Shown here piece by piece: positions 3 through 36,601 of a stretch of 45,691 nucleotides of DNA. Where the stretch lies: contig JACOSH010000566.1 in NCBI GenBank assembly GCA_016178945.1, positions 1 through 45,691 on the forward strand. The letters are read 5' to 3'. The notes below the pieces were generated by a model. That model saw only the letters and a list, made by a program, of their open reading frames with translations, did no database searches and was not told the origin of the DNA. The translations under genes and the position numbers were made by a program. Source of the stretch: Acidobacteriota bacterium (GTDB lineage: Bacteria > Acidobacteriota > Terriglobia > Bryobacterales > Bryobacteraceae). Position 1 is the first letter of the stretch. Each line of letters begins with the position of its first letter.

Positions 3-578
3 CACCGCCCGTGGGAGACCTGCGCTACTCTCGGCCGCCAGTGGGCCTACAAGCCCGATGACACGCCGCGGTCGATCGAAGAGTGCCTGCGGGGGCTGGT
101 CTGCTGCGCCATCGGCGACGGCAACTTCCTGTTCAACGTGGGCCCGCGGCCGGACGGGCTGATCGAGGAATCGCACGCGGCGCGCCTGCGGGAGATGGGC
201 CAGTTCCTGAAGCAGTACGGCGAGAGCATCTACTCGACCCGCGGCGGCCCGTTCATCGCACCGGACGAAAAGATGCGCCCCGCGAAAGCCCAGGGATTCG
301 CGCTGGCCGAAGGCCGCTGGTGGGGCGGCAGCACGCACCGGGAAAACTCGATCTACCTGCACATCCTGCGCTGGCCGTCCGAGACAATCGAACTGCCCGC
401 CATTCCGCGCAGGATCGTCCGCGGCAGCCTGCTCGCGGGCGGCAGCGCGGCGGTGAAGCAGACCGCGAGCGGCATCCGGGTGGGCGTGCCTCCGGCCCGC
501 CGCCACGCGGTGGACACCATCGTCAACCTGGAGCTCGACGGCCCGGCGAGCAGCATCGCGGCGATCCGTCCCGCGTAA
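3..578 (+). CDS. alpha-L-fucosidase (GH29), C-terminal part
   Basis: The frame is open from the left edge of the window, so only the C-terminal 191 residues are seen and the start lies outside. The visible part begins with PWETC and a WAYKPDD stretch, followed by NFLFNVGPRPDGLI and RLREMGQFLKQYGESIY. These match the end of the catalytic barrel of GH29 alpha-L-fucosidases, where the usual wording is NLLLNVGP followed by RL.EIG.WL..NGE.IY. The enzyme would release L-fucose from glycans, probably outside the cytoplasm as most relatives do, but the signal peptide is not in view. The remaining ~85 residues are a small C-terminal beta domain. The next gene starts 45 bp downstream on the same strand, so the fucosidase may be co-transcribed with the corrinoid genes. 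The family call is firm; the exact substrate is not known. Confidence 0.9.
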   Translation, partial: HRPWETCATLGRQWAYKPDDTPRSIEECLRGLVCCAIGDGNFLFNVGPRPDGLIEESHAARLREMGQFLKQYGESIYSTRGGPFIAPDEKMRPAKAQGFALAEGRWWGGSTHRENSIYLHILRWPSETIELPAIPRRIVRGSLLAGGSAAVKQTASGIRVGVPPARRHAVDTIVNLELDGPASSIAAIRPA

Positions 579-623: not shown

Positions 624-1265
624 ATGTCTATGCCCGATCTTACAAGTTTGTACACAGCCATTCTGAACGGCGACGCGAAAGCCGCCACTGCCATCACCAA
701 GGAAGCGCTGGCGGAGAACGCGGATCCGCTGGAGATGGTGAACCGGTACATGGTTCCCGCCATGAGCGAAGTCGGCAAGCGGTTCGAGTGCGAGGAATAT
801 TTCGTCCCGGAGCTGCTGCTGGCGGCCCGGGCGATGAAAGGGTCGCTGGAGCTGCTGCGGCCCTTGCTGACCGAGCGGGGCTCCGAGCCGACCGGCCGCG
901 TGGTCATCGGGACCGTCAAAGGCGACCTGCACGATATCGGCAAGAACCTGGTCGCCTCCCTGCTCGAAGGCGGGGGCTTCGAAGTCATCGACCTCGGCGC
1001 CGACGTGGGGCCGGAACGATTCGTCGCGGCGGTCCGGGAGAAGAATGCGAATTTCGTCTGCCTCTCCGCGCTGCTGACGGTCACCATGCCCTCCATGCGG
1101 AAGACGATCGAAGCGCTCCGGGCGGCCAATCTCCGGGACCGGGTTCGCGTGCTGGTGGGCGGCGCGCCGGTGACCCAGCAATGGGCCGATGAGATCGGGG
1201 CCGACGGATTCGCTCCGAACGCCAGCGCCGCGGTAACGTTGGCGCGCCGGCTCGCGGCCGCCTGA
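624..1265 (+). CDS. corrinoid (B12-binding) methyltransferase carrier protein
   Basis: This 213-residue protein has the size and two-domain layout of MtaC/MtbC/MttC-type corrinoid proteins. Residues 1-85 form a helical cap like that of methionine synthase (MVPAMSEVGKRFECEEYFVPELLLAARAM). From about residue 90 follows a Rossmann B12-binding domain. The signature D101-L-H103-D-I-G106 is intact, and H103 is the expected lower axial cobalt ligand. LLTVTMPSM and VLVGGAPV cover the other nucleotide-loop contacts. Such proteins carry a methyl group on cobalt between a substrate-specific methyltransferase and a second methyltransferase in the cytoplasm. Here the partners are likely the adjacent homocysteine methyltransferase and one or both URO-D proteins. 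The methyl donor cannot be read from the sequence. Confidence 0.93.
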   Translation: MSMPDLTSLYTAILNGDAKAATAITKEALAENADPLEMVNRYMVPAMSEVGKRFECEEYFVPELLLAARAMKGSLELLRPLLTERGSEPTGRVVIGTVKGDLHDIGKNLVASLLEGGGFEVIDLGADVGPERFVAAVREKNANFVCLSALLTVTMPSMRKTIEALRAANLRDRVRVLVGGAPVTQQWADEIGADGFAPNASAAVTLARRLAAA

Positions 1266-1278
1266 GACACCAGCGCCC

Positions 1279-2163
1279 GTGATTCATCCGCTCATCCGGC
1301 AATTGACCGCGGAAGGCCCGGTGGCGACCGACGGGGCCTGGGGTACGGAGCTGCAGGCGCGCGGTCTTGAACCCGGCGAGTGCCCGGACGCCTGGAACCT
1401 CACCCACCCGGATCGTGTCCAGGAGGTGGCGCGGGCTTACGTTGAAGCCGGATGCCGCCTCATCATGACGAACACCTTCCAGGCCAATCGCATCGCGCTC
1501 GACCGGTATGGCCTGGCGGAGCGGGCCGGAGAGATCAATCGGGCCGGCGCCGCGATCTCGCGCCGGGCGGCGGAGGGCAGGGCGCTGGTGTTCGCCTCCC
1601 TGGGTCCTAGCGGGAAGCTGCTGGACGAATTCCCGGAACAGGCGTTGTACGCCGCCTTCGCGGAGCAGGCGCGGTCCCTGGCGGAAGGGGGCGCCGGCGC
1701 CCTGGTGGTCGAGACGATGTCCGACCTGGCCGAAGCGAGAATCGCCATCGGCGCGGCGCGCGAAACCGGTCTTCCAGTAGTAGCCTCCATGGTCTTCGAC
1801 ACGGGCAAGAACAAGGACCGCACCATGATGGGGGTGACGCCCGAGCGAGCGGCGGAGGAGCTGACCCTGGCCGGGGCCGATGCCGTCGGCGCAAATTGCG
1901 GGGCCGGCATCGCCGGGTGCGTCTCCCTCTGCCGCCGTCTTCGCGCCGCGACCGGGCGGCCCATCTGGATCAAGCCCAACGCCGGACTTCCGCGGCTGAT
2001 CGAAGGACGCGCCGTCTACACGACAACTCCCGAAGAGTTCGCCGGCTATGTGCCCGCGCTGATCGAAGCGGGCGCCTCCTTTATCGGCGGCTGCTGCGGC
2101 ACGGGTCCGGCGTTCATCGCGGCTGTCCACAGGGTGATCGTGCAGCGCCTTCCCTCACGTTAA
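1279..2163 (+). CDS. homocysteine S-methyltransferase family protein
   Basis: The start is a GTG 13 bp after the corrinoid gene. The 294-residue protein is a zinc-dependent methyltransferase barrel (Pfam S-methyl_trans), like the N-terminal module of MetH or betaine-homocysteine methyltransferase. DGAWGTELQ near residue 18 and MTNTF near residue 63 are family motifs. The three zinc thiolates are present: C207 in GANCGAG and C272/C273 in GGCCGTGP. The protein lacks the folate, B12 and reactivation domains of full MetH. It therefore works as a stand-alone module and probably uses the neighbouring corrinoid protein as methyl donor or acceptor. Methyl transfer to homocysteine is the family-based expectation; another thiol or folate partner is possible. 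Confidence 0.9.
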   Translation: MIHPLIRQLTAEGPVATDGAWGTELQARGLEPGECPDAWNLTHPDRVQEVARAYVEAGCRLIMTNTFQANRIALDRYGLAERAGEINRAGAAISRRAAEGRALVFASLGPSGKLLDEFPEQALYAAFAEQARSLAEGGAGALVVETMSDLAEARIAIGAARETGLPVVASMVFDTGKNKDRTMMGVTPERAAEELTLAGADAVGANCGAGIAGCVSLCRRLRAATGRPIWIKPNAGLPRLIEGRAVYTTTPEEFAGYVPALIEAGASFIGGCCGTGPAFIAAVHRVIVQRLPSR

Positions 2164-2176
2164 AATAGGCGATGCG

Positions 2177-2941
2177 GTGCGCCTGAAGCTGATCAGTTGC
2201 GAGATCTTCTACCGCGAGATCCGCGCGGCGGTGGCGCGCTCGCCCCATGCAGTGGACGTCGAGTTCCTTCCCAAGGGCCTGCACGATATCGGCGCGGAGG
2301 GAATGCGCGGCAGCCTCCAGGCCGCTCTTGACCGCGTGGACGGGACCCGCTATGACGCCGTGCTGTACGGGTACGGGCTGTGCGGCAACGGGCTGGCCGG
2401 CCTCGCCGCGCGCTCCCTTCCGGTGGTAGTCCCTCGCGGCCACGACTGCATCACGCTGTTTCTGGGCGGCAAGGAACGGTACGCCGACTACTTTCAGAAC
2501 CATCCGGGCGTCTACTTCAAGACCACCGGTTGGATCGAGCGCGGACAAGACCTCCAGCAACTGCACCAACCCTCGATCCAAAGCATAACGGGCATGAACC
2601 GCAGCTACGAAGAACTGGCGGCCAAGTATGGCGAGGACAACGCCCGGTATCTGTACGAGGAACTGGTGAACTGCCGGCGAAACTACCAGCAGTTGACCTT
2701 CATTGAAATGGGCGTCGAGCCCGACGACCGTTTTGAACGGCAGACCCAGGAGGAGGCCGGGAGGCGCGGCTGGAAGTTCGAGAAGGTGCAAGGCGATTTG
2801 TCGCTGATCCAGCGGCTGGTCGACGGACAGTGGGACGAGCGGGAGTTCCTGGTCGTGCCGCCGGGGTGGCGGGTGGTGGCCCGCTACGACGAGGGAATCA
2901 TCGCCGCGGAGCCTCCTCTCGGCGCGGAACCTCATCGATAA
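2177..2941 (+). CDS. DUF1638 domain protein linked to corrinoid methyl transfer
   Basis: The gene starts with GTG 13 bp after the methyltransferase and encodes 254 residues. It shows the DUF1638 pattern: LISCEIFYREI at the N-terminus, YGYGLCGNGLAGL, then VPRGHDCITLFLGGKERY and a VYFKTTGWIER segment. DUF1638 proteins have no settled biochemical role, but they recur beside corrinoid methyltransferase genes, and this gene is third in such a row. Conserved Cys and His residues (C9, the Cys of GLCGNG, the GHDC motif) suggest metal or cofactor binding, which is inference. No signal peptide or membrane segment is seen, so it should be cytoplasmic. Confidence 0.85.
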   Translation: MRLKLISCEIFYREIRAAVARSPHAVDVEFLPKGLHDIGAEGMRGSLQAALDRVDGTRYDAVLYGYGLCGNGLAGLAARSLPVVVPRGHDCITLFLGGKERYADYFQNHPGVYFKTTGWIERGQDLQQLHQPSIQSITGMNRSYEELAAKYGEDNARYLYEELVNCRRNYQQLTFIEMGVEPDDRFERQTQEEAGRRGWKFEKVQGDLSLIQRLVDGQWDEREFLVVPPGWRVVARYDEGIIAAEPPLGAEPHR

Positions 2942-2996
2942 TGGAAGTACGATAGACGCAGCGTCCCCTGCTGGTAGGTTGTCAAGGGAGGCTTTC

Positions 2997-4013
2997 ATGC
3001 GCACTTTTTTCCTGTTAGCTGTTGTGCCGTGGCTGTGGGCCGGCGCGTTGCAGGCGGCGTCGAGGCAGGTCCTGGCCTTCTATTACGGTTGGTATGGCAA
3101 CCCGGGGACCAGCGGCAAGTGGGTTCACTGGAAAGACGTCAACGAAGCCAAGAAGGATATCGGCGGATCGACGAACTACCCCAGGCTGGGCCCCTATGAC
3201 AGCCACGATCCGAAGGTGATCGAGGAACATTGCCGGCTGGCGAAGGCGGCCGGGATCACCGGCTTCATCATGACCTGGTGGAGTCAGGGCGATTTTCACG
3301 ACCAGGGCCTGCCGTTGATGCTGGACACCGCTCAGAAGCACGGCCTGAAGATCATGGCGTACTTCGAGACGATCCACCCGCCGAAGGAGCCCACGCCCGA
3401 AGGGGCCGCGTCCGGCGTACTCTACATCCTGGAGAAGTACGGAAAGCACCCGGCGTGGCTGAAGGAGAACGGCAAGCCGGTGCTGTTCATCTACGGCCGG
3501 GCCGTGGGTCAGATCAAGGTAGACAAGTGGGAACGGGCGCTGGCGCTGGCCAACCAGCGATATGCGGGCGGGGCGGTGTTCATCGGAGACCAGATCTCGG
3601 AACGCGCGGCCCGCATCTTCGACGGGATCCACACCTACAATCCGACCGGGAAGACGGCCGGCAAGTCCGTGCGGGAAATCCAGGAGTGGGCGCGCGCGGC
3701 GTATCCGCGGTGGGTGAAGACCGCGGGCGACCGGATCGCCTGCGTCACCATCATCCCGGGCTACGACGACACGGAGGTGGGCCGCCCGGCTCCGCGTCCC
3801 AACACGGACCGGCACCAGGGCGAGACCTACAAGGCGCTGTGGAAGGAAGCGATCGCGGCCAAGCCGGACTGGGTGCTCATCACGAGCTGGAACGAGTGGC
3901 ACGAAGGGAGCGAGATCGAGCCGTCGGTCGAGAACGGCGAGCGCGAATGGAAGACGACGCGGCAGTTCGCACCGAAGTTCGCGAAGAAGCCTGCGCGGCC
4001 CGTTTCAAGGTGA
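2997..4013 (+). CDS. secreted GH99-like (endo-alpha-mannosidase-type) protein
   Basis: The ATG at 2997 is preferred over an upstream start at 2979. A GGGAGG ribosome site sits just ahead of it, and it opens directly into a signal peptide (MRTFFLLAVVPWLWAGALQA). The mature protein starts with FYYGWYGNP, followed by LGPYDSHDP, a GITGFIMTWW segment and a C-terminal TSWNEWHEGSEIEPS. These are marks of the GH99/glycan endo-mannosidase-like barrel (glycosyltransferase WbsX-related GH99-like clan). It probably acts on a periplasmic or secreted glycan. Its stop overlaps the end of the opposite-strand URO-D gene by 9 bp. The barrel type is fairly clear, but the substrate is uncertain and a noncatalytic role cannot be excluded. 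Confidence 0.82.
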   Translation: MRTFFLLAVVPWLWAGALQAASRQVLAFYYGWYGNPGTSGKWVHWKDVNEAKKDIGGSTNYPRLGPYDSHDPKVIEEHCRLAKAAGITGFIMTWWSQGDFHDQGLPLMLDTAQKHGLKIMAYFETIHPPKEPTPEGAASGVLYILEKYGKHPAWLKENGKPVLFIYGRAVGQIKVDKWERALALANQRYAGGAVFIGDQISERAARIFDGIHTYNPTGKTAGKSVREIQEWARAAYPRWVKTAGDRIACVTIIPGYDDTEVGRPAPRPNTDRHQGETYKALWKEAIAAKPDWVLITSWNEWHEGSEIEPSVENGEREWKTTRQFAPKFAKKPARPVSR

Positions 4014-5186
4014 GGCCGCCACTTTGTCCGTGATGTATTGCAGGCGGTCCCACTCGGCGTCGGCCGTCACCATGTCGCTGACGCCGAGAATGAAGCGGCT
4101 CTTGCGGCCGTGGCGCTCGACCACTTCGTCGATGTAGCGCCGGAAGTCGGCCTGGCTTGCGCTGCCGGCGCACAACAGGACCGAAGGGATGCCGCCCCAG
4201 ACGGTGATGCGGCCGGCAAACGCCTCCAGAATCTCCTCGAGCCGGCAGCGGGTCATGGGGTACGGACAGACCGAATCGGCGATATCAAAGCCGGCCTCCA
4301 GGTAGAGGGGCAGCAGCTTGCGGTTCTCTCCGTCGGTGTGGGTCATCAGGTACTTGCCTTTGAGGTGCAGCACCTCGGCGTAGGAGCGCAGCGGAGGGAG
4401 GATGTGCTGGGCGAAAAAGCGGGTGTAAGTGATGGAGTCATCGTAGTTGGCGCCGAGCAGCACCACTTCGGCCGGGGAATCGGCGGCGATCTCCTGGATG
4501 CGCCGATAGAACGGCTGCATCTGCCCGGCCAGGCGCTCGACCGCCGCGGGACAGTCGTGAAGGGCGTAGAAAAACTGGTCGAGCGGCATCAGGTCCTTCA
4601 TGATGTGCTGCATGGGACAGGCCGTGCCGCTGGTGTAGGCCACCACAATGCCGCGCTCCCCGACTTGCCGCCGCCGCGCCAGGTAGCCGCCGGGCTGGGG
4701 CTCGACCTTGAGATGAGAGAAGATGTAGCCCACCACGCCCATGTCGCGGGGCTCGCGGATGGCGTGTTCGGCGATCCAGGAAATGGAGGCGCCGCCATCC
4801 AGCATCTCCCCGGTGAACACGGTGGCGGTGCGGATGGATCCCATCGGGGTATGGTATTCGACCGCAGTCTCCAGCCCGCGCCGGAACACGCGGCGGTCCA
4901 CGCCTTCGAGTGTGGCCTGGTAGGGCAAGATCGGGAGACGGTAGATGCCCAGCGCCCGGTCGATCATGTCCGTGTCTTCCGCGCATTCGGTGAAATCCGG
5001 GACCACTGAGTAGCAGGCCACGCCCAAGCGGTCGGCGATCTCCAGGAGGCTCAGCGAGCGGAGCTCGGCGGGCAGAGTGCCGGCGCGCAGGCGGGCGCGA
5101 TGCCAGAAATCGAGCCTCGGGGCCCACGGCAACCGGTCGGGCGTGTCGCCCCGGATGGCGGCCAAGATGCGTTCGCGATCCGTCAT
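4005..5186 (-). CDS. URO-D superfamily methyltransferase-like protein (first copy)
   Basis: The start at 5186 gives MTDRERILAAIRG, the typical beginning of this family; the upstream extension to 5240 has no family similarity. The 393-residue protein has the uroporphyrinogen decarboxylase fold, which also covers corrinoid and coenzyme methyltransferases such as MtaA, MtbA and CmuA. The metal region reads THTDGEN. It therefore has an H-x-D pair rather than the H-x-C of classic zinc MtaA/MtbA proteins, although Cys residues occur later (SVCPYPMT, LLCAG). A role in heme synthesis is unlikely because the gene lies inside a corrinoid methyltransferase and glycosidase cluster. It is divergent from the MFS gene, with 56 bp between start codons. 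It may be a substrate-specific demethylase; the substrate is unknown. Confidence 0.85.
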   Translation of the reverse strand: MTDRERILAAIRGDTPDRLPWAPRLDFWHRARLRAGTLPAELRSLSLLEIADRLGVACYSVVPDFTECAEDTDMIDRALGIYRLPILPYQATLEGVDRRVFRRGLETAVEYHTPMGSIRTATVFTGEMLDGGASISWIAEHAIREPRDMGVVGYIFSHLKVEPQPGGYLARRRQVGERGIVVAYTSGTACPMQHIMKDLMPLDQFFYALHDCPAAVERLAGQMQPFYRRIQEIAADSPAEVVLLGANYDDSITYTRFFAQHILPPLRSYAEVLHLKGKYLMTHTDGENRKLLPLYLEAGFDIADSVCPYPMTRCRLEEILEAFAGRITVWGGIPSVLLCAGSASQADFRRYIDEVVERHGRKSRFILGVSDMVTADAEWDRLQYITDKVAASP

Positions 5187-5242
5187 GGGATTCTCTGGAC
5201 ATCGTAACGCGATCAGAGCACAATGGCCGCAGGACCCCACAA

Positions 5243-6523
5243 GTGACTCCGCCCGAACAGAACCGGCTGGCCTGGTCCGTCGTTCTCCTGCTGTTTGCCG
5301 GATCGGTGATGAATTACGTGGACCGCTCCGTGCTGGGCGTGGTGATGCCGCAAGTGCGGAAAGATCTCTCGCTGACGAACGCCGACTACGGCCTGGCGGT
5401 CAACGCCTTTCTGGTGCTGTACATGGTTTTCTACATTCTGGGGGGGCGGGTGGCCGATCGGCTGGGCTGCCGGCGCGCTTACTCGTTGACGGTCATCTTC
5501 TGGTCGATCGCCAGCATGTTGCACGCCTTCGCGCGGGGACTGAGCAGCTTCTGCGTGTTTCGGGGGCTGCTGGGCATCGGAGAGGGCGGCTTCTACCCCG
5601 CCGCGATACGAGGCGCGGCGGAGTGGTTCCCCGCGGAGAATCGCGCCAAGGCGGTGGGCCTGTTCCTGTGCGGCCTGAGCGTGGGCGCCTTGATCACGCC
5701 ACCGCTGGTCGCGTGGATTACGGTGCACTACGGCTGGAGAGCGTCGTTTCTGGCGACCGGCGCCGCCGGCTTCCTGCTCCTGCCTCCCTGGCTTCTGCTC
5801 CACCGGCGGGTCAAGCAGGTGTACGGGGTGAGCGATCCGGCGCCGGCCTCCAGGCATCCGGAGGCCGCCGGGCTTTCCATCGAGGAGACTCCCGCGCTGT
5901 TCGACGTGCTGGCGGGCCGCAAGTATTGGTGCGTTCTGACGGCCCGCGCGCTGACCGATGGGGCGTGGTACTTTTACCTGTTCTGGCTGCCGGGCTATTT
6001 TCAGGAGGCCCGAGGGTACACGCTGGAGAGGGTCGGCCAGCAACTGTGGTTCCCGTACTTCAGCGCGGATCTGGGGGCCCTGGGCGGTGCCTGGGCCGCG
6101 AGCGCGCTGATCCAGCGCGGGTTCGGCCTGGACCGCGGCCGCAAGATGGTCTTGATTCCCTCGGCTGTCCTGGGCGCGCTGGGCGGGCTCACCTACTTCG
6201 CCGGCAGTCCTCTATTGGCCCTTGCCCTGGTCAGCGTGGCGCTGTTCGGGCATCTGTCCTGGGCCACCAACATCCATACCGTGATCTCGGAGATCACTCC
6301 CCGGAAGCACATGGCCGTTCTCTACGGGATAACCGGCGCCGCGGGCACGCTGATGGGCGCGGTCACGCAGCCGCTGATCGGCCGGGCCGTCGATTGGGGC
6401 GGGTACGCGCCGCCGTTCCTGGGCGTCGGCGCCGCCTACACCCTGGCGATTGTCCTGCTGCTCGCCGCCGGCAGAATCGAGCCGATCCGGCGGGCTGCAC
6501 CGATTACGGCGCTGTCCCGTTGA
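5243..6523 (+). CDS. MFS transporter, ACS family (hexuronate/organic anion type)
   Basis: This 426-residue inner-membrane protein starts with GTG and has about twelve hydrophobic segments. The first loop carries MNYVDRSVLGVVMPQVRKDLSL, a hallmark of the anion:cation symporter family that includes ExuT, GudP and related sugar-acid carriers. The A-loop between TM2 and TM3 is GGRVADRLGCRRAY. FRGLLGIGEGGFYPAAIRGAAEWFP, around TM4-5, is also typical of this family. It probably imports a sugar acid or similar anion, coupled to protons or sodium. Its position between the two URO-D genes suggests that it brings in the substrate of this locus, but that link is inference. Confidence 0.87.
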   Translation: MTPPEQNRLAWSVVLLLFAGSVMNYVDRSVLGVVMPQVRKDLSLTNADYGLAVNAFLVLYMVFYILGGRVADRLGCRRAYSLTVIFWSIASMLHAFARGLSSFCVFRGLLGIGEGGFYPAAIRGAAEWFPAENRAKAVGLFLCGLSVGALITPPLVAWITVHYGWRASFLATGAAGFLLLPPWLLLHRRVKQVYGVSDPAPASRHPEAAGLSIEETPALFDVLAGRKYWCVLTARALTDGAWYFYLFWLPGYFQEARGYTLERVGQQLWFPYFSADLGALGGAWAASALIQRGFGLDRGRKMVLIPSAVLGALGGLTYFAGSPLLALALVSVALFGHLSWATNIHTVISEITPRKHMAVLYGITGAAGTLMGAVTQPLIGRAVDWGGYAPPFLGVGAAYTLAIVLLLAAGRIEPIRRAAPITALSR

Positions 6524-6611
6524 ACTCGAGCAACGCGCCGATCAACGCCGGGCGGGGATTCTGTTACGGTAAGAGTGAATACGGCCCGCCTCCTGACGAG
6601 GAGAACCAGAT

Positions 6612-7724
6612 ATGCCGCCAAGAGATCCCAATTTCGAGAACCTCCGGTTCAACCTGATGCGGAGAGGAGAACCGGCCTATGTGCCGATCGTGGAATTCGG
6701 CGTCGACTATGACGTCAAGTGCGCCTTCGTGGGAAGACCGATTGAGACGCTCCAGGACGAAGTCGAGTTCTGGTATGAGGCGGGATACGATTACGTGCCG
6801 TTGCAGGCCGGAATCCGGACCTTGTTCTGGCCCGGGTTCACGGCTTCCGAGAAGGCGGGTGAGCGGGGTCTGAAGACCAACCCTCTGCTCCACCAGCGCA
6901 CGCACACCAAGTACACGGTCTACCAGGACGCGGACCGCGAGATGGACTGGGCGCCGGAGGGGAAGGGCGCCATCAGCAATCTGGAAGAGTTCGAACGATT
7001 CGCCTGGCCCGATCCCGAGCAGATGAACCTATCGGTCTTTGAAGACGTGAGGCAGTACCTCCGTCCTGGGATGAGAGTCATCGCCTACCTGGGGTACATC
7101 TTCACGGCCGCCTGGTGGCTGATGGGGATGGAGACGTTCTGCATCGCCCTCTACGAACAGCCGGAGCTGATCCGGCGCCTCTATGACCGCATCTGGGCCA
7201 TCCAGAGCCGCGTGCTCTTCCGGATTCTCCGGTCCGACCTGGTGGGGGCGCTGGTTCACGCCGACGACCTGGCCTACTCCGAAGCGCTGATTATTTCCCC
7301 CAAACATTACCGCGAATTCGTGTTCCCCTGGTATCGCTGGTGCGGCGCGATCGCGCGGGATCGCGGCCTGGCCTACATCTTCCATTCCGACGGACGCCTC
7401 ACCCCGGTCCTGGACGACCTGATCGGGTGCGGGTTCAACGCGCTGCACCCCATCGAGCCGAAGGCGATGGACATTCGGGAGGTGAAGAAGATCGCCGGCG
7501 ACAGGCTTTGCCTGCTTGGCAACATCGACCTGGGTTATACGCTGACCCGGGGAACGCCGCGGGAGGTGGAGCAGGAGGTCAAGGAGAAGATCAACACCGT
7601 GGCGCCCGGCGGCGGCTATTGCGTGGGATCGAGCAATTCGGTGACCGCCTACGTCCCCCTGGAGAATTACAACGCGATGCGCGAGGCGGCCTTCAAGTAC
7701 GGCGTCTACCCGCTCTCGATCTGA
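6612..7724 (+). CDS. URO-D superfamily methyltransferase-like protein (second copy)
   Basis: The ATG at 6612 follows a GAGGAG ribosome site and gives a 370-residue protein of the URO-D superfamily. Family features are an N-terminal VPIVEFGVDYD strand, WPDPEQMNL in the usual FPWPDP position, HADDLAYSEALIISPKHYREFVFPWYR, IFHSDGRLTPVLDDLI and the late LHPIEPKAMD followed by LLGNIDLGYTL. The HSDG motif is the H-x-D variant seen in many URO-D proteins outside heme synthesis. Together with the first copy, the carrier protein and the homocysteine-type methyltransferase, it would complete a methyltransfer set in the cytoplasm. It ends 10 bp before the convergent glycosidase gene. The substrate is not predictable from sequence. 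Confidence 0.88.
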   Translation: MPPRDPNFENLRFNLMRRGEPAYVPIVEFGVDYDVKCAFVGRPIETLQDEVEFWYEAGYDYVPLQAGIRTLFWPGFTASEKAGERGLKTNPLLHQRTHTKYTVYQDADREMDWAPEGKGAISNLEEFERFAWPDPEQMNLSVFEDVRQYLRPGMRVIAYLGYIFTAAWWLMGMETFCIALYEQPELIRRLYDRIWAIQSRVLFRILRSDLVGALVHADDLAYSEALIISPKHYREFVFPWYRWCGAIARDRGLAYIFHSDGRLTPVLDDLIGCGFNALHPIEPKAMDIREVKKIAGDRLCLLGNIDLGYTLTRGTPREVEQEVKEKINTVAPGGGYCVGSSNSVTAYVPLENYNAMREAAFKYGVYPLSI

Positions 7725-7734
7725 CCCGGGTCGA

Positions 7735-10700
7735 TCACGGCGCGACGCTGACCGTTACCGGCGACATCAGGCCGTAATCCAGGACGTCGTACCGCGCGCC
7801 AGGTGGCTGGCGCTGGGGAAAATCGTTCCACGCCGCGGGCCAGGCCCGCATGCGCGGCTTGGTCCGGTTGTGGAAAGGCCCGAACAGGTTGCGCGGCGTC
7901 GAGACGATCCGGACTCCGACGGAATGGTTACCTGGAGCGGCGGAGAACTCCGCCCGGTGGGGCTGCCATCCGAGGGCGGCCACCTGCCGGCCGTCGAGCA
8001 AGACGGCGGCCACGCTTCCCTCCCACCGGCCCAGCTCGACGCGCATGCGGCCCGCGCCCGCGGGGACCTGTACTTGCGTGGCATACAAGACCGCGTCCGG
8101 ATAGAAGGGATATCCCTGCGCCGCCCAGGATCCGAAATCCAGCCTGGCCGGGGCCGCCAGCCGGAATCCCTTCTCCGCCGCGCGCACGCTGAAGTTGCCG
8201 CGCAGGTAGATGTTCTCCAGCTCCATCCGGACGTCGAAGGGCCGGCCGGCGATGCGGATGATGTTCTCGCCCACCCGGGCCCACTTCTCAACGGCCACGC
8301 TGCGCAGGTGCGGGTCCAGCCATCGGGCGGTTCCTTCGAACGAAACCGGGTTCCCGTTGAGCGTCACGCGGTAGAGCGCCGGTTCCTCGACAGCCAGTTC
8401 CAGCCCGCGCAGCGCGGCCACGTCCGCCGCATCGAACCGGAAAGCCGCCTCAAAGCCGGACCGCGGGTCAAAATGATTCTGGTCGAAGACCCGTGTCTTG
8501 AACTGCACGGCGTTGTCCCAAGCCGGCCGCACGAAGCCATGCTCCTGCCACAGTCTCCAGTTGGCCTCCCAGGTATTCACGTCGCGCAGGCCGGCGATCG
8601 AAGGTGGCACGGCCAGGTCGCAATAGTCGAGCACCAGCACGTTGGGAGCTTCGGGGCTGACTCTCCAGACGCCGGCCGCCAAGTTCGTGAACCGGGGTTC
8701 AGCGTTGGGCCGCGCCGCTGCTGCCGCCTTTTTCGCCACCAGCAACTCCGAGCCCGCCGGTGGCAGTTCCAAATTGAAGGGCGACTCGGCCGTCTCGATC
8801 CGCCCGGTGATGGTGTCCCACCTCTCCAGCGACCCGGCGTCGACGGTGAGCTTCGCTCGCGCCGCGCTCACCCCGGTATTGGCGAAGAAGATGACGCGAT
8901 CCCCGTTCTCCAGGAAGCGCTCCGAGACACCCACGTTGGGCAGCGCCGCGTCCAACTTCACACGCGGCTTTAGCCTGCGCCGGATCTCGCGCAGCAGATC
9001 CTCCAGCCCGCTCACCGCGCGCCACTGCGCGGCGTAGCGCGTCTGAAGCACCGCGACGCGATCGCTCGATCGCCCGTCGACATACGCCGCCGCGGGCGCC
9101 AGTGCCAGGATCTCGCCTCCCGCCGCCAGGTAGCGCTCCAGGCGCGGCAGGGTCTCGCCCCGCAGGTTGATCATGTTCGCGGGCCACACCAGCAGCTCAT
9201 AGCGCGCCTGCCCGATGGCCAGCCGCCGCCCGTCCTGCCCTCCGTGCCACTCCAGCAGGTACTCGTCGCCGAGATCGAAATCCACCTGGTGGTCGGCCAG
9301 AAACTGGATCATCTCGCCGTTGTCGGCGCGCATTCCGGCCAGCTCGGGCGTGGGGTCTCCGCGGCGGGCCCACAGGAATCCGCTGGTGGTCGGCTGGAGG
9401 ACCAGCAGCCGGTTCCGCGCCGCTCCCTGGCTGAGCATGTAGCTCACGCGCCCCAGGTGATCGCCGTGCAGTTTGTAGTAGGGCCACCAGGCCGACACGC
9501 CGGAGAAACTTTGCGGGTGATCGCGCTTCCGCGCGCCGCGCACGGTGGCAAACGCCAGGTGCTGATCGATGAAGTTGACGCCGTGCGCCAGGAGCCAGTC
9601 GCCAAAGCGCTTGTAATGCTCGAAGGTCGAGTCCCATCCGCTGACGCCGTAGGCCTCGCAGAAGGCCCGCCGCCCCAATTGATGCGCCACGCTGGCCACC
9701 TGCTTGATGGTGAACAGCATGTGCGGGTCGGAGCCCTTCGTACGGATGTTCGAGCCTTCCAGCATGTCGATGCCGGGAACGTGCTGGAACGCGTACATGG
9801 AGGCGTCGGCCGGCGAGATCCAGGGATAGGGCCACTCGTGCTCCATCCAATGCCCGGTGAACTGGAGGCGGTTCCGGTCGCACCACTGGTAGAGCGGCTG
9901 GAAATAGTTCTCCTTCCACACGTCGTGCAGGGTTTGCCAGTAGTCGAAACGCAGCCTCCTCCAATCGCCCACGTCCCAATAGAGCGAGGGCAAATGGTCC
10001 GCCAGATCGTAGCCATGCCGCTTGCGGAACTCGGCCAGCGTGTAGGGGCTGAGCGGCAGCGCCAGCGAGGCCTGGTCGTACGCTCCGCCGGTGGCGATCA
10101 GCGGCTCGTCGTCGAATACCCACCGGATGGTCTTGCCAAACTCGGCCCCCAGGTGCTTCTTGTAGCGCTCGTAGGTGGTCTCAATAAACGCGGAGGCGGT
10201 TTGCGGATTGGTCAGGTCGACGTACGGAAACCCGCCGGTCCAGGGATTCCCGGATGCGCGCCGGAGGCGGAACACCACGGCGCGCGCGCCAGGCGGAAGG
10301 CCGTCCGCGCGGTGGACCCGGGGCCCTTCCCGCGAAGCAAACACGGCCACCGTTTCGGCCGCCTTCCAGGGGACGCGCTCCGGCGGAACATCCAGTTCCG
10401 CCTGCACGTACTGCGCGACCGTGTCGGGCGCCATGGCGGGCACGTGCCCGCCCGCAAATCCCGCCGGATAACTGTTCTCGTCGTAGATGTTGACGAACAG
10501 GCCCAGGCGCTTGGACTCCTCGACCGACAGCTTCCACAACCGGAACCAGTCGGCGCCCAAGTACTCCGTCATCAGGCCGGGGCGCGGATGGACGAACACC
10601 CCGCCCATGCCCTGCCGGCGAAATTCCCCGAGCTGTTCTTTCAATCGCGGCCACTCCAATTGGTCGTTCCAGACCCAGAGCGGCATGGAGCGGAACTCAG

Positions 10701-10785
10701 CGGGCGGATCGGCGAAGCGCTCGCGGTCACCGGCGGCCGCCATCACCGCCAGCAACAGGCCAATAATTAGAATGAAAGATTTCAT
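7735..10785 (-). CDS. large secreted glycoside hydrolase, GH106-like (alpha-L-rhamnosidase type)
   Basis: The chosen start at 10785 has a strong GGAGGGAG site and begins a signal peptide (MKSFILIIGLLLAVMAAAG). The longer frame to 10893 is polar and lacks a ribosome site. The mature protein begins FADPPAEFRSMPLWVWND, then GMGGVFVHPRPGLMTEYLG and IYDENSYPAGFAGG. This opening is characteristic of GH106-like enzymes. A barrel follows (FDDEP, FTGHWMEHEW, FCEAYGVSGWD), then a glutamine-amidotransferase-like domain around residues 530-640, and a C-terminal beta-sandwich with a galactose-binding-like fold. The full length of 1016 residues fits the family. It would remove alpha-L-rhamnose or a related deoxysugar outside the cytoplasm. 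The family is likely; the linkage specificity is not established. Confidence 0.82.
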   Translation of the reverse strand: MKSFILIIGLLLAVMAAAGDRERFADPPAEFRSMPLWVWNDQLEWPRLKEQLGEFRRQGMGGVFVHPRPGLMTEYLGADWFRLWKLSVEESKRLGLFVNIYDENSYPAGFAGGHVPAMAPDTVAQYVQAELDVPPERVPWKAAETVAVFASREGPRVHRADGLPPGARAVVFRLRRASGNPWTGGFPYVDLTNPQTASAFIETTYERYKKHLGAEFGKTIRWVFDDEPLIATGGAYDQASLALPLSPYTLAEFRKRHGYDLADHLPSLYWDVGDWRRLRFDYWQTLHDVWKENYFQPLYQWCDRNRLQFTGHWMEHEWPYPWISPADASMYAFQHVPGIDMLEGSNIRTKGSDPHMLFTIKQVASVAHQLGRRAFCEAYGVSGWDSTFEHYKRFGDWLLAHGVNFIDQHLAFATVRGARKRDHPQSFSGVSAWWPYYKLHGDHLGRVSYMLSQGAARNRLLVLQPTTSGFLWARRGDPTPELAGMRADNGEMIQFLADHQVDFDLGDEYLLEWHGGQDGRRLAIGQARYELLVWPANMINLRGETLPRLERYLAAGGEILALAPAAAYVDGRSSDRVAVLQTRYAAQWRAVSGLEDLLREIRRRLKPRVKLDAALPNVGVSERFLENGDRVIFFANTGVSAARAKLTVDAGSLERWDTITGRIETAESPFNLELPPAGSELLVAKKAAAAARPNAEPRFTNLAAGVWRVSPEAPNVLVLDYCDLAVPPSIAGLRDVNTWEANWRLWQEHGFVRPAWDNAVQFKTRVFDQNHFDPRSGFEAAFRFDAADVAALRGLELAVEEPALYRVTLNGNPVSFEGTARWLDPHLRSVAVEKWARVGENIIRIAGRPFDVRMELENIYLRGNFSVRAAEKGFRLAAPARLDFGSWAAQGYPFYPDAVLYATQVQVPAGAGRMRVELGRWEGSVAAVLLDGRQVAALGWQPHRAEFSAAPGNHSVGVRIVSTPRNLFGPFHNRTKPRMRAWPAAWNDFPQRQPPGARYDVLDYGLMSPVTVSVAP

Positions 10786-10944
10786 TTCTCCCTCCTTCAC
10801 GACCGCGACCGCACCGGATACGCCCGGTCCGCCATGAAGCAGGTCGGCGGGTAATCGACTCGCGCGGCCGCGACGATCTGTTGTCATTCTCATGATACGC
10901 CGAAACTTGGGGGGCGAGCCGCTTTCGTTCCATAATCAGGATTC

Positions 10945-12351
10945 GTGCTGATCCGCATTACAAACACGGCTGAACCGGCCACGGATCTCGGGTTTCTTCT
11001 GCACAAGAATCCCGCGAATCTGCATTCCGCGGATTTGGCGTTTGGCAAAGCCTACGTCTTTTACTCGAATGCGGCCGCGCAGCGCTGCACGGCGTGCCTC
11101 TTGTTGGAAATCGATCCCGTGGAGCTGGTGCGCGGGGCGCAGCGCCCCGAAGACTACGTGAATGACCGGCCCTATGTGGCGTCGTCGTACCTCACCGTGG
11201 CCATGGGGCGAATCTTCGGCACGGCGCTGGCGGGCCACTGCCAGAAGCGCCCGGAGCTGGTCGCTACGAAATTGCCGCTGGAAATCACCGTGGAGGTGAT
11301 CCGCTCACGCGGTGGAGCGGAGATCCTGCACAGGCTCTTCGAACCCCTTGGCTATCGCGTTGGCGCCGCCCAACTTCCGCTGGACGACAACTTCCCGGAG
11401 TGGGGAGAGAGCCGGTATTTCCGGCTGAACTTGGAAGCCCGCGCGACGGTTCACGATGCCTTGTCGCACCTGTACGTATTGCTGCCGGTGTTGGACGACG
11501 AAAAGCACTACTACATCGGCGACGCCGAGGTCGACAAGCTGCTGCGGCACGGCGAGGGATGGCTCCGCAACCACCCGGAACGACAGTTAATCGTCAGCCG
11601 CTACCTCAGGCGCAGATCCTCTCTGATGGATCAAGCGTTCGACAAGCTGCTGGATGAAGAGGGCGCGGCTGTGGAAGCGGCGGAATCGAACCTGGAAAAG
11701 GCGGCGCGCGCGGAGAAGGACCTGGAGAGGCCGATGACGCTCCACACGCAGCGGTTGAACCTGGTGGCGGCCAAGCTTAAGGATCTCGGGACCAAGACAG
11801 TCCTGGATCTCGGCTGCGGCGAAGGCAAACTGCTCCGGCGCCTGCTGGCGGATCGCGCATTTGAGCAGATTGCCGGCATGGACGTCAGCCACCGGTCGCT
11901 CGAAATCGCTTCTTCGCGGCTCCGGCTGGAGCGCATGCCGGAGCGCCAGCGGAAACGGATCCGGCTGATGCAGGGTTCCCTGCTCTACCGCGACAAGCGG
12001 TTGAGCGGATTCGACGCGGCGGCGCTGGTGGAGGTCATCGAGCATTTGGACCGCCCGCGCCTGGCCGCGCTGGAGAGAGTGCTCTTCGAGTTTGCCAGGC
12101 CCCGCCACGTGCTGGTGACCACCCCGAACCGGGAATACAACGTGTTGTTTCCGACGCTCCCTCCAGGCAAGCTGCGCCACGGCGACCACCGTTTCGAGTG
12201 GACCAGAGCGGAGTTCGCCAGTTGGGCGGACGCCGCCGGCGCGCGTTTCGGCTACCAAGTGAGCTTCGAGCCGGTAGGGCCGGTCGACGCTCAACACGGC
12301 GCACCCTCGCAAATGGCGGTCTTTTCGCTGCCAACGGAAGGCGGCGAATGA
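10945..12351 (+). CDS. hen1: bacterial Hen1: 3'-terminal RNA ribose 2'-O-methyltransferase
   Basis: The GTG start at 10945 gives the standard opening MLIRITNT..PATDLGFLLHKNP of bacterial Hen1. The 468-residue protein has the N-terminal ligase-activating domain (about 1-250) and a C-terminal SAM methyltransferase. The SAM loop is VLDLGCGEGKLL near residue 287. The metal-binding set characteristic of Hen1 is present: E363-x-x-E366-H367, and H415 in GDHRFEW. The enzyme methylates the 2'-OH at the 3' end of a cleaved RNA before ligation. The repaired junction then resists being cut again by the same ribotoxin. The gene overlaps pnkp by ATGA, which indicates translational coupling. The assignment is secure. 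Confidence 0.97.
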   Translation: MLIRITNTAEPATDLGFLLHKNPANLHSADLAFGKAYVFYSNAAAQRCTACLLLEIDPVELVRGAQRPEDYVNDRPYVASSYLTVAMGRIFGTALAGHCQKRPELVATKLPLEITVEVIRSRGGAEILHRLFEPLGYRVGAAQLPLDDNFPEWGESRYFRLNLEARATVHDALSHLYVLLPVLDDEKHYYIGDAEVDKLLRHGEGWLRNHPERQLIVSRYLRRRSSLMDQAFDKLLDEEGAAVEAAESNLEKAARAEKDLERPMTLHTQRLNLVAAKLKDLGTKTVLDLGCGEGKLLRRLLADRAFEQIAGMDVSHRSLEIASSRLRLERMPERQRKRIRLMQGSLLYRDKRLSGFDAAALVEVIEHLDRPRLAALERVLFEFARPRHVLVTTPNREYNVLFPTLPPGKLRHGDHRFEWTRAEFASWADAAGARFGYQVSFEPVGPVDAQHGAPSQMAVFSLPTEGGE

Positions 12352-14900
12352 AGACCCTCGAGATTCCGGACCTGGCTTTGGTTGCGCTGATCGGCGCTTC
12401 GGGTTCCGGCAAGTCCACACTGGCGCGGCGGCATTTTCTCGCAACGGAGGTGCTTTCCTCGGACTTCTTCCGGGGACTCGTGAGCGACGATGAGAGCGAT
12501 CAGGCCGCGACCCATGACGCGTTCGACGCGCTCTACTACATGCTCGAAAAACGGCTGGCGCGAGGAAAGCTGACGGTAGTCGACGCGACCAACGTGCGCG
12601 CGGAAGACCGGAGGCGATTGGTCGCACACGCCCGCAAGTATCACTGCTTCGCGGTAGCCTTGGTGCTGAACACGCCGGAGAGGATCTGCCTGGAGCGCAA
12701 CAGCCACCGGCCGGATCGCGCCTTCGGACCGCACGTTGTGAGGCGCCAGATTAGCGATCTACGGCGCGGCCTTCGGGGGTTGGAGCGTGAGGGCTTCCGT
12801 TACGTTCATATCCTGAACGACCGGGAGGAAATCGAGATCCGGCGGGTTCCGCTGTGGAACAACAAGAAGGATCAGACCGGACCCTTCGACATCTTCGGCG
12901 ACCTGCATGGCTGCGCCGATGAACTGCGCGCACTTATGGAGCAGCTCGGCTGGCGGCGCGACGCTTTGGAAGCTCCGGAGTCGCCCTGGGGCAATGAGTG
13001 CTGGCGGCACCCCGCGGGGCGCCGGGCGGTCTTCCTGGGCGACCTGGTCGACCGGGGGCCGCACGTGGTGGATACGTTGCGTATCGTTCGCAACATGGTC
13101 ACCGCCGGAACCGCGTTTTGCGTGGCCGGCAACCACGACGTGAAGTTCCTGCGATGGTTGCGCGGGAAACAGGTTCAGGTGAAACACGGCCTGGAGATGT
13201 CCATCGCGGAAGTAGAATCCTTGGCCGCCGAAGATCGGGGAAACCTGGCCTCGTTCCTGGACGGGCTGGTGAGCCACTACGTCCTCGACGGCGGCCGGTT
13301 GGTGGTCGCGCACGCCGGCCTTCGCGAGGAAATGCACGGCCGGGGTTCGGGGGCAGTCCGCGAGTTCTGCCTGTACGGCGAGACGACGGGCGAGACGGAT
13401 GAGTTCGGGTTGCCGGTGCGGTACAACTGGGCCGCGGAATATCGGGGCAAAGCGACCGTGGTCTATGGCCATACCCCGGTTCCGGAACCCGAGTGGTTGA
13501 ACAACACGACGAACATCGACACCGGCGCGGTGTTTGGAGGCAAGCTCACGGCGCTGAGGTACCCGGAGCGCGAGTTCGTCTCGATTCCGGCGGCGCGAGA
13601 GTACTCCCCTCCGATCCGGCCTTTCATCCAGCCTGCGTCCGAGGCACGGACCAGCCAGCAGGAGCTGGACGACGTGCTCGACCTGGAAGACGTCACGGGA
13701 AAACGAATCGTCGAAACCCGGCTGCACCGGAGCATCACCATCCGCGAGGAGAACTCCATAGCGGCCCTGGAAGTGATGAGCCGGTTTGCCACCGATCCGC
13801 ATTGGGTGATCTACCTGCCGCCGACCATGTCGCCGAGCGAAACATCCTCGCTCCCGGACTACCTGGAATACCCGACGGAGGCGTTTGACTACTTCCTTGG
13901 GGCGCAGGTGCAAAAAGTAGTTTGCCAGGAGAAACACATGGGATCGCGGGCGGTGATTGTGATTGGCCGCGACCTGAAGGCGGCCCGCGAACGATTTGGC
14001 GCGATCGATGGCAGGATCGGCGTGTGCTACACCCGCACCGGGCGGCCGTTCTTCCCGGATGGCGGCGAAGAGGCCGAATTCATCGTCCGGGTTCAAACCG
14101 CATTAACGAAAGCCGGCTTCTGGGAGGAGTTTGGCTCCGGCTGGTTCTGCCTGGATTGCGAGCTGATGCCTTGGTCGGCGAAGGCGCGGGAGCTCCTCCA
14201 ACGCCAATACGCAGCCGTGGGCGCGGCCGGCGTAGGCTCGCTCGAATCCGTGGTCGCGGCCATGGAACAGAGCCCCGCGGCCGCGGGAATGCTGGAGACG
14301 TATCGACAGCGATTGGAACGGCTGCGCCTGTACCGGCAAGCCTATCGCCGTTATTGCTGGCCCGTCCACTGTTTGGACGATTACCGGCTGGCGCCGTTCC
14401 ATCTGCTCGCGTCGGAAGGCGCCGTCCACAGCGGCAAGACCAACCGATGGCACATGGAAACGCTGCATCGTCTCGCGGCCGCCGATCCCAACTTCATCGT
14501 GGCCACGCCATTTTTGGAAGTCGAGGTAACGGATGAAGCCGCCGTCGCGCGGGCGTCGCTCTGGTGGGAGCAACTGACCGGCACGGGCGGCGAAGGAATG
14601 GTGGTGAAGCCGCTCGAGTTCGTTGCGCGTGGACCGGACGGTTGGGTGCAGCCTGCCCTCAAGTGCCGCGGGCGCGAGTACCTCCGGATCATTTATGGCC
14701 CGGAGTACACGGCCGGCGATCAGTTGCCCAAGCTCCGGTCCCGGGGTCTTTGGAGGAAACGGTCGCTGGCCATCCGCGAATTCGCGCTGGGCATCGAAGC
14801 GCTGCAGCGCTTCGTGGACCGCGAGCCGTTGCGGCGGGTCCACGAATGCGTATTCGGCGTGCTGGCGCTGGAAAGCGAGCCGGTGGACCCGCGCTTGTGA
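12348..14900 (+). CDS. pnkp: bacterial Pnkp: RNA 5'-kinase / 2',3'-phosphatase / adenylyltransferase
   Basis: The ATG at 12348 overlaps the hen1 stop and yields 850 residues, normal for this family. Three domains follow in order. The kinase has the P-loop GASGSGKST with K22 and S23. The metallophosphoesterase has D185-L-H187 in FGDLHG, D232 in GDLVDRG and N262-H263 in GNHD. The ligase-type adenylyltransferase has nucleophile K529 in EKHMGSR and the downstream motifs EGMVVKP and LKCRGREYLRI. The protein heals both ends of a broken RNA and forms the ligase core; sealing needs Hen1. All major catalytic residues are visible, so the repair system looks functional. An upstream in-frame extension to 12198 overlaps hen1 and is not real. 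Confidence 0.97.
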   Translation: MKTLEIPDLALVALIGASGSGKSTLARRHFLATEVLSSDFFRGLVSDDESDQAATHDAFDALYYMLEKRLARGKLTVVDATNVRAEDRRRLVAHARKYHCFAVALVLNTPERICLERNSHRPDRAFGPHVVRRQISDLRRGLRGLEREGFRYVHILNDREEIEIRRVPLWNNKKDQTGPFDIFGDLHGCADELRALMEQLGWRRDALEAPESPWGNECWRHPAGRRAVFLGDLVDRGPHVVDTLRIVRNMVTAGTAFCVAGNHDVKFLRWLRGKQVQVKHGLEMSIAEVESLAAEDRGNLASFLDGLVSHYVLDGGRLVVAHAGLREEMHGRGSGAVREFCLYGETTGETDEFGLPVRYNWAAEYRGKATVVYGHTPVPEPEWLNNTTNIDTGAVFGGKLTALRYPEREFVSIPAAREYSPPIRPFIQPASEARTSQQELDDVLDLEDVTGKRIVETRLHRSITIREENSIAALEVMSRFATDPHWVIYLPPTMSPSETSSLPDYLEYPTEAFDYFLGAQVQKVVCQEKHMGSRAVIVIGRDLKAARERFGAIDGRIGVCYTRTGRPFFPDGGEEAEFIVRVQTALTKAGFWEEFGSGWFCLDCELMPWSAKARELLQRQYAAVGAAGVGSLESVVAAMEQSPAAAGMLETYRQRLERLRLYRQAYRRYCWPVHCLDDYRLAPFHLLASEGAVHSGKTNRWHMETLHRLAAADPNFIVATPFLEVEVTDEAAVARASLWWEQLTGTGGEGMVVKPLEFVARGPDGWVQPALKCRGREYLRIIYGPEYTAGDQLPKLRSRGLWRKRSLAIREFALGIEALQRFVDREPLRRVHECVFGVLALESEPVDPRL

Positions 14901-22219: not shown

Positions 22220-22579
22220 ATGTCTTCACATGTCACCAACACGCGTCTGAACCGGCTGCCCGAGGCGATGCGGCGTGATTTGGTGGCGGCAAGGCGGAAG
22301 CGCTGCTGGAGCCAGGCCGAACTGGGCCGACGGGTCGGCCTGCCGCAAGCCCACATCTCGGGCATTGAAACCGGCAAGGTCGTGCCGCGGTTCAACACGC
22401 TGCTCGATCTGGTGCGGGTGCTCGATTATGACCTGCTGCTGGTTCCGCGGACATTGGCTCCCGCCGTCCAGTCGATGATCCGCGATCACCGCCAGCCGGG
22501 TGCCTTCGATGCCGGGGAGGGCGAACGTCCGCTCTATGCGGCCGATGAACATGACGAGGGCGGCTCCGATGAATCCTGA
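22220..22579 (+). CDS. hipB: HipB-like XRE-family antitoxin
   Basis: The 119-residue protein carries one Cro/CI-type helix-turn-helix at residues 13-70: LVAARRKRCWSQAELGRRVGLPQAHISGIETGK, then FNTLLDLVRVLDYDLLLVPR. The last phrase is the strand and edge typical of HipB antitoxins. The acidic tail (about residues 95-119) may contact HipA. HipB dimers repress their own operon and hold HipA in an inactive complex. The gene overlaps hipA by 11 bp. The start at ATG 22220 is the only sensible one, though no Shine-Dalgarno is visible. Confidence 0.9.
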   Translation: MSSHVTNTRLNRLPEAMRRDLVAARRKRCWSQAELGRRVGLPQAHISGIETGKVVPRFNTLLDLVRVLDYDLLLVPRTLAPAVQSMIRDHRQPGAFDAGEGERPLYAADEHDEGGSDES

Positions 22580-25705: not shown

Positions 25706-25716
25706 CAGGAATCACC

Positions 25717-29001: not shown

Positions 29002-29031
29002 GCGCACCTCCTCAATATGGACATGTTAGTT

Positions 29032-35728: not shown

Positions 35729-36601
35729 ATGTCCGATTCCCAAAGCAGCTCTCCCCGCGTGCCCTGGATGGCGATCGTGTGGTTTGGCGCGCTCCTGATC
35801 GCCTGCTACGCGCCGGTGCTGGCGCGCCTGGTGAAGCAGTGGGAGAACGACGAAGACATGGGTCATGGCTTCTTCGTGCCCGTGATCGCCGCCTACATCG
35901 CCTGGCAGAAGCGCGAGGAGATCCTCAACGCGGTCGGCGCGCCCAACGGCTGGGGCCTGATGCTGGTGATCTACTCGGCCGTCCAGCTCACGGTCGCGAC
36001 TCTGGGGGCCGAGATCTTCCTGGCGCGCACCGCCTTCGTGCTGGCGGCCATCGGGGCGTTTCTCTACCTGGGAGGAACCGGCGCGGTGCGGGCTCTGGCC
36101 TTCCCGCTCTTCCTGCTGTTCTTCATGATCCCGATTCCGAACATCTTCTACAACATGATCACGTTCCCGCTGCAGATTCTGGCCAGCCAGATGGCCGAGT
36201 TCGTCCTTATGTTCCTGGGCTTCCCGGTGCTGCGCGAGGGCAATGTCCTGGAATTAGCCGGCCAGCGTTTGCAGGTGGTGGAAGCGTGCAGCGGAATCCG
36301 GTCGCTGCTCTCGTTGAGCTTCCTCTCGTTGGTCTACGGGTATTTCTTTGAAAACCGGATGGGGATGCGGGTGACGCTGTTTTTCCTGACCGTACCGGTG
36401 GCCCTGGTGGCCAACGCCAGCCGCGTGACCACCACGGGCGTCCTGAGCGAGATCCGGCCGGAGCTGGCCCGCGGCTTCTTTCACAGCGCCTCGGGCTGGG
36501 TGATTTTCATGGTGGCCCTGCTGCTCCTGGTGGCGATCCATCAGGCCCTGACCCTGTTCCACAGATACATTTATGGCAAACGGCAGCTTCCTTCCGAGTA
36601 A
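35729..36601 (+). CDS. exosortase (EpsH-type transpeptidase)
   Basis: The ATG at 35729 is preferred to the upstream TTG. The 290-residue protein has about eight membrane spans. The catalytic triad of exosortases is visible: C187 in VEACSGIRSL, R232 in NASRVTTTG and H252 in FFHSASGW. Exosortases process PEP-CTERM sorting signals at the inner membrane and usually sit in exopolysaccharide loci. Here only epsI accompanies it, with a 29-bp overlap. No PEP-CTERM target was noticed in the window. Near the N-terminus MGHGFFVPVIAAYIAWQKR is a typical family segment. Confidence 0.93.
   Translation: MSDSQSSSPRVPWMAIVWFGALLIACYAPVLARLVKQWENDEDMGHGFFVPVIAAYIAWQKREEILNAVGAPNGWGLMLVIYSAVQLTVATLGAEIFLARTAFVLAAIGAFLYLGGTGAVRALAFPLFLLFFMIPIPNIFYNMITFPLQILASQMAEFVLMFLGFPVLREGNVLELAGQRLQVVEACSGIRSLLSLSFLSLVYGYFFENRMGMRVTLFFLTVPVALVANASRVTTTGVLSEIRPELARGFFHSASGWVIFMVALLLLVAIHQALTLFHRYIYGKRQLPSE

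Follow-up and report, generated by a model that had tools for sequence, protein, structure and literature searches.

A conserved corrinoid methyl-transfer gene set in a Bryobacteraceae genome: a candidate URO-D-type demethylation module with homocysteine as methyl acceptor

We analyzed a 45,691-nt stretch of DNA (the window), which is the whole of contig JACOSH010000566.1 (C514) in the 7.3-Mb, 606-contig genome of an Acidobacteriota bacterium (family Bryobacteraceae; assembly GCA_016178945.1), and in particular the corrinoid methyl-transfer genes near its start. We found that the corrinoid methyl-transfer set at this locus is real and conserved: orthologs of all of its corrinoid components recur together across many genomes, which bears out one part of an earlier sequence-only reading. 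That reading had also proposed that the set strips O-methyl groups from sugars after glycan cleavage by the glycoside hydrolases (GHs) encoded around it. Instead, we think it probable that the genes form a corrinoid-dependent demethylation module that would deliver methyl groups to homocysteine, with the GH genes as mere neighbors. On this best reading, the locus is an unreported variant of corrinoid demethylation; we found no description of the arrangement, a URO-D demethylation set wired to homocysteine together with an importer, in our searches of the open-licence literature.

Conservation of the corrinoid set

By profile search we recovered every gene named in the sequence-only reading (carrier, homocysteine methyltransferase, DUF1638 protein, two URO-D proteins, GH29, GH99-like protein, transporter, and GH106-like protein). 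The carrier is a corrinoid (B12) protein (CP) of the MtgC/MtbC type (nucleotides 624 to 1265, plus strand; PF02607 and PF02310; 190.7 of 215.3 bits for TIGR02370) that bears the sequence DLHDIG (DxHxxG motif). It is followed by a zinc-type homocysteine S-methyltransferase (HMT; 1279 to 2163, plus strand; PF02574, 224 bits), which retains its zinc cysteines in GANCGAG and GGCCGT, and by a DUF1638 protein (2177 to 2941, plus strand; profile match). The two URO-D superfamily proteins are the divergent UROD1 (4005 to 5186, minus strand; PF01208, 25.7 bits, barely above the cutoff; its start, the ATG at 5186, was picked by conservation) and UROD2 (6612 to 7724, plus strand; PF01208, 86.5 bits). Between them lies an MFS transporter of the DgoT/ExuT (anion:cation symporter) type (5243 to 6523, plus strand; full-length TIGR00893 match, 223 bits).

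CP orthologs with 59 to 79% identity are present in 78 of 200 genomes of the family. We annotated 23 carrier loci (20 CP-ortholog neighborhoods plus L097, L132, and L138); genes in neighborhoods were called with a simple codon-score gene finder. DUF1638 was found in 18 of the 23, HMT in 14, and the activator RACo in 13. Also recurrent were an MtaA-like URO-D protein, URO-Db (14/23; ~160 bits to TIGR01463), and another URO-D protein, URO-Da (12/23). From its sequence, HMT is likely the acceptor-side enzyme, and DUF1638 presumably helps in corrinoid reactivation. The methyl acceptor had been given as homocysteine or folate. The locus itself codes for homocysteine as acceptor: its acceptor enzyme is of the PF02574 type, and no PF00809-type (folate) methyltransferase (MT2) was found in the window.

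The same block of separate carrier, homocysteine methyltransferase, and DUF1638 protein is found in the Roseobacter-type systems for split methionine synthesis and glycine betaine demethylation (MtgC, MtgD, DUF1638, and RamA; PMC5764234, PMC12478193), which resemble our genome also in having a RamA-like activase. In Phaeobacter, fitness data link DUF1638, together with a RamA-like protein, to the split methionine synthase, but no specific biochemistry is proposed there (PMC5764234); in Ruegeria, a related module serves glycine betaine demethylation as well as methionine synthesis (PMC12478193). In contrast, the donor of the Roseobacter-type system is the MttB-type MtgB, in whose place the window has URO-D proteins. 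We rejected MttB-type glycine betaine demethylation, as the genome contains no PF06253.

Radical SAM proteins lie near the carrier operon in L128 (8684 to 10219) and L114 (4282 to 5568), one of them with a weak B12-binding match, and Radical_SAM is the joint commonest family among carrier neighbors (4/97). Within the carrier operon of genome G025, L113 (9086 to 10117) encodes a very divergent URO-D protein with an HDCG motif, which had no placement in the tree.

UROD2 recurs with corrinoid carriers across phyla

Orthologs of UROD2 (~60 to 85%) occur in 8 other genomes of the 200, and its closest named relatives are Bryobacterales/Bryobacteraceae metagenome-assembled genomes. A CP ortholog is present in 8 of the 9 genomes with UROD2 versus 70 of the 191 without it (Fisher P = 0.003; kinship not corrected). 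Relatives down to 41% are found in Methylomirabilota, Chloroflexota, Calditrichota, and Neomarinimicrobiota. On the Methylomirabilota contig L132, genes for RACo, CP, a URO-D protein, UROD2 (77%), HMT, and DUF1638 lie on one strand; Chloroflexi L138 has CP and then UROD2, and Neomarinimicrobiota L141 has UROD2, CP, and an MtaA-like URO-D protein. These three loci strongly tie UROD2 to corrinoid methyl transfer across phyla. A search of plasmid records with UROD2 gave four weak matches, three without annotation and one labeled hypothetical protein.

The structural model of UROD2 (pLDDT 82) had as its best Foldseek match MtaA (4ay7; E = 5e-14), the methylcobalamin:coenzyme M methyltransferase, and gave Z scores of 28 to URO-D and MtaA. 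The predicted structure shows that UROD2 has the URO-D/MtaA fold. In the tree, UROD1 and UROD2 fall into separate, well-supported clades. An enolase beside UROD2 in L048 was considered as a sugar-acid dehydratase and rejected; it is of the N-succinylamino-acid racemase type.

UROD1 is paired with a DgoT-like transporter

UROD1 orthologs (61 to 78%) are present in 15 other genomes of the family; 396 genomes sampled from the phylum gave no strong match, and plasmid records gave none at all. UROD1 adjoins an ortholog of the window's MFS transporter (57 to 75%) in 12 loci, including the window, of ~15 assessable, mostly in divergent orientation. The exceptions are L104 and L105, which lack the pair, and L100, which has a different MFS protein; L103 was too short to judge. 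The flanks of the pair are unrelated across loci (topoisomerase, leucyl-tRNA synthetase, squalene synthase, and others). In G097 and G199, the pair adjoins CP-DUF1638-URO-Db-RACo; the join in G199 is a 120-bp contig overlap (100%) that links this set to MFS-UROD1. In G142, two contigs with an end overlap of 217 bp (95%) together carry UROD1, UROD2, DUF1638, RACo, MFS, and URO-Da; this join is likely, although not certain, to be genuine. CP orthologs occur in 14 of the 16 genomes with UROD1 versus 64 of the 184 without it (Fisher P = 5e-5, again with no correction for kinship).

The nearest solved relative of the transporter is the galactonate transporter DgoT (6e9n; E = 7e-43). D27, R28, R107, and E114 are kept and correspond to D46, R47, R126, and E133 of DgoT; L145 stands at the position of DgoT Q164. 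With the DgoT-type residues kept but Q164 replaced, import of an organic anion would fit, and galactonate is not indicated.

A distant UROD1 paralog (27 to 30%; L110, 2455 to 6665) has as neighbors an aldo/keto reductase and proteins of the DHDPS and MFS families, a setting that resembles a sugar-acid pathway. The DHDPS-family and MFS proteins had no solved relative at the cutoff.

UROD1 and UROD2 lack the thiolate zinc ligands of MtaA

We compared the URO-D proteins at the zinc ligands of MtaA (4ay7), His237, Cys239, and Cys316. The aligned residues are H, C, and C in URO-Db, which thus retains the acceptor-type triad, and H, C, and H in URO-Da. UROD2 has H258-S-D260 ... N342 (H, D, N), that is, H-x-D...N in place of the H-x-C...C of MtaA, which makes thiol activation unlikely. 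UROD1 has H283-T-D285 ... D371 (H, D, D), with the third position aligned less surely. With both thiolate ligands gone, neither protein looks suited to methylating thiols, which leaves them as likely substrate-side enzymes; the residue swap thus suggests that UROD1 and UROD2 act on the substrate side. Neither scores as a true uroporphyrinogen decarboxylase (HemE), the model for which, TIGR01464, matched neither protein; the highest URO-D score in the genome (267 bits) belongs to a different gene, on C274.

Proposed methyl flow and evidence against it

In the scheme that we propose, the DgoT-like MFS protein would import a small methylated compound, probably a carboxylate. UROD1 and UROD2 would each transfer a methyl group from their own substrate to the Co(I) of CP, and HMT would then pass it from CP to homocysteine, giving methionine. 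DUF1638 and a RACo-type activase (here RACo2, encoded on contig C487) would return oxidized cobalt to Co(I). We infer that a small carboxylate is the most likely substrate. B12-dependent demethylation by URO-D proteins has been described chiefly in acetogens and methanogens, with folate or coenzyme M as the acceptor. In this soil-type family of Acidobacteriota, such chemistry seems instead to feed homocysteine and to come with a dedicated importer. The identity of the substrate would reveal methylated compounds used by these abundant, poorly understood bacteria, and DUF1638 would gain a setting for study and the two URO-D clades a role.

Several findings weigh against this model. The window has no RACo, the reductive activator required by such systems, which lies within the operon in L132 and L040; the only RACo found in the genome is RACo2, next to a second carrier. 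The assembly is 92% complete, and gene absences are therefore provisional. In most genomes, the UROD1-MFS pair is not beside the carrier. A profile of UROD1 searched against solved structures returned only CdmB (E = 0.45), which leaves it with no clear solved relative, and its single-sequence structure prediction was unusable (pLDDT 38). Finally, the partners of UROD2 differ in several genomes (a GH95 gene; an S41 peptidase in G056).

The second corrinoid set, on C487 (L049, 1 to 3991), comprises a URO-D protein, the carrier CP2, an 81-amino-acid protein with no Pfam match, RACo2, and a PF00809 methyltransferase. Its URO-D gene is apparently split over C487 and C580 (L146), and the set is also present in G142 (L109).

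Aromatic substrates or methyl salvage

We asked how other readings fare with the same data. One is that UROD1, UROD2, or both are aromatic O-demethylases that act on methoxylated aromatic acids, such as vanillate, and pass the methyl group to homocysteine rather than folate. The transporter family to which the MFS protein belongs is generally known to include aromatic-acid carriers as well. The characterized O-demethylases of the UroD superfamily, among them OdmB, VdmB, MtvB, and MtoB, use methoxylated aromatics (PMC13222342). Together with the chloromethane dehalogenases (CdmB), these systems share with ours a UroD-superfamily methyltransferase, a carrier, and an activating enzyme: the fold is predicted for UROD2, a carrier is co-encoded (in the window, L132, L138, and L141 for UROD2 and in L097 and G199 for UROD1), and an activase is present in the genome. 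Their acceptor is folate, whereas the window encodes an enzyme for homocysteine and lacks the folate methyltransferase, with one PF00809 MT2 lying beside the second carrier on C487. Furthermore, we identified no ring-cleavage gene among the neighbors scanned. We consider aromatic substrates possible but on the whole doubtful.

The URO-D proteins might also be methyl exchangers rather than nutrient demethylases, either in an mlp-like salvage of methyl-sulfur or methyl-selenium compounds or in a plain split methionine synthase. Type 1 mlp clusters resemble our locus in that multiple URO-D proteins accompany a carrier and an activase (the last in relatives of the window), with no folate methyltransferase in the block (PMC10418091). 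Such a cluster has two or more Mlps together with a carrier and a Ram protein, all codirectional and with no divergent gene between them. The window, in contrast, has HMT and DUF1638, no activase (Ram), and UROD1 on the minus strand. Moreover, Mlps are defined by their closeness to MtaA, from which UROD1 and UROD2 are far removed: TIGR01463 (cutoff, 235) gives UROD2 54 bits and UROD1 nothing. CP, HMT, and DUF1638 do match the split methionine synthase of Phaeobacter (PMC5764234), but this genome additionally keeps a full-length MetH (1,183 amino acids, on C390). The tie of UROD1 to an importer also speaks against this explanation, and we judge it unlikely.

Glycosidase genes as neighbors

Three GH genes flank or interrupt the corrinoid genes. 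The GH29 (alpha-L-fucosidase family) gene is represented by its 3' end (3 to 578, plus strand; PF01120, 63 bits, profile positions 272 to 345); the contig begins inside the gene, and the match therefore covers no more than the final 74 of the 345 profile positions. The GH99-like protein (2979 to 4013, plus strand; PF16317, 174 bits) has an N-terminal signal-peptide-like stretch, as has the GH106-like protein a signal-peptide-like stretch (7735 to 10893, minus strand), whose match is weak (43.9 bits, part of the profile). The sequence-only reading had placed GH29 and GH106 among the corrinoid genes at 624 to 7724; both genes exist but lie outside that interval. Its term "deoxysugar glycosidases" hangs mainly on the truncated GH29, since the substrates of family GH99 are not deoxysugars and GH106 was assigned on a weak match.

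According to the proposal, exported GH29, GH99, and GH106 enzymes would release O-methylated sugars or sugar acids, which the MFS transporter would import and UROD1 and UROD2 would demethylate. Either UROD2 or UROD1 (together with the DgoT-like transporter) would then be a corrinoid O-demethylase of, for example, 4-O-methylglucuronate or O-methyl fucose that hands the methyl group straight to homocysteine in this acidobacterial heterotroph. Consistently with this, GH29, CP, HMT, DUF1638, and GH99 all lie on the plus strand with intergenic gaps of 45, 13, 13, and 37 nt, which makes it plausible that the five genes share a transcript in this genome. We found no cobalamin riboswitch in the window, and a scan of it for promoters and terminators gave matches at chance level only. 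Other points in favor are the kinship of the MFS protein with a galactonate transporter, a galactonate-dehydratase-like enolase directly upstream of CP in G056, the neighborhood of the distant UROD1 paralog, and, in one genus, the position of UROD2 after a GH95 gene (three genomes, with overlap in two). This overlap of 1 to 4 nt (L043, 8070 to 11608; L042, 10194 to 13735) is the only repeated glycosidase link that we found.

However, a survey of neighborhoods did not reveal the recurrence that the proposal needs. Relatives of the window's GH29, GH99, or GH106 were absent from all 53 neighborhoods surveyed and from the 23 carrier loci; none lay near any other carrier, UROD1, or UROD2. Orthologs of GH106 (57 to 69%) are present in many relatives and never near corrinoid genes: in the single contig of G143, the two genes lie at 3.00 Mb (GH106) and 2.39 Mb (CP); the corresponding positions in G144 are 8.31 and 4.63 Mb; and in G075, GH106 and the corrinoid genes are each on their own contig. 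Seven other genomes have GH99 orthologs, and the contigs that carry them have no ortholog of CP, UROD1, or UROD2. Neither the Methylomirabilota UROD2 operon nor the carrier-UROD2 loci of the other phyla have a GH gene that we could identify, and the replacement of DgoT Q164 by L145 in the transporter also weighs against the proposal. The genome has four GH29 genes, so that one near any given locus is less remarkable. Among the best 25 families listed for 97 other carrier neighbors, no GH family recurs, although rare single GHs are possible; two pectate lyases were seen, both from one genus. We therefore rejected a conserved linkage of GH29, GH99, and GH106 to the corrinoid genes. They look like neighbors in this genome only, outside the conserved set, and the residual hints, among them the short same-strand gaps by GH29 and GH99 and the UROD2-GH95 overlap in one other genus, are too scattered to bear the proposal out. 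Demethylation of sugars, though possible, is unsupported, and we regard it as quite improbable.

Other features of the window

Downstream of the GH106-like gene, at 10945 to 14900 on the plus strand, two adjacent genes resemble those for the bacterial Hen1 RNA 3'-methyltransferase and the Pnkp kinase-phosphatase-ligase, an RNA repair pair recognized from translation. A small helix-turn-helix-like open reading frame followed by a HipA-family kinase gene (22268 to 23819; PF07804 and PF13657) is likely a HipBA-type toxin-antitoxin pair. At 24248 to 29007, a sulfatase gene adjoins one for a large TonB-type outer-membrane barrel protein, a combination common in glycan uptake loci. An exosortase is encoded at 35768 to 36601 (PF09721, 232 bits), and the end of its gene is overlapped by another small gene.

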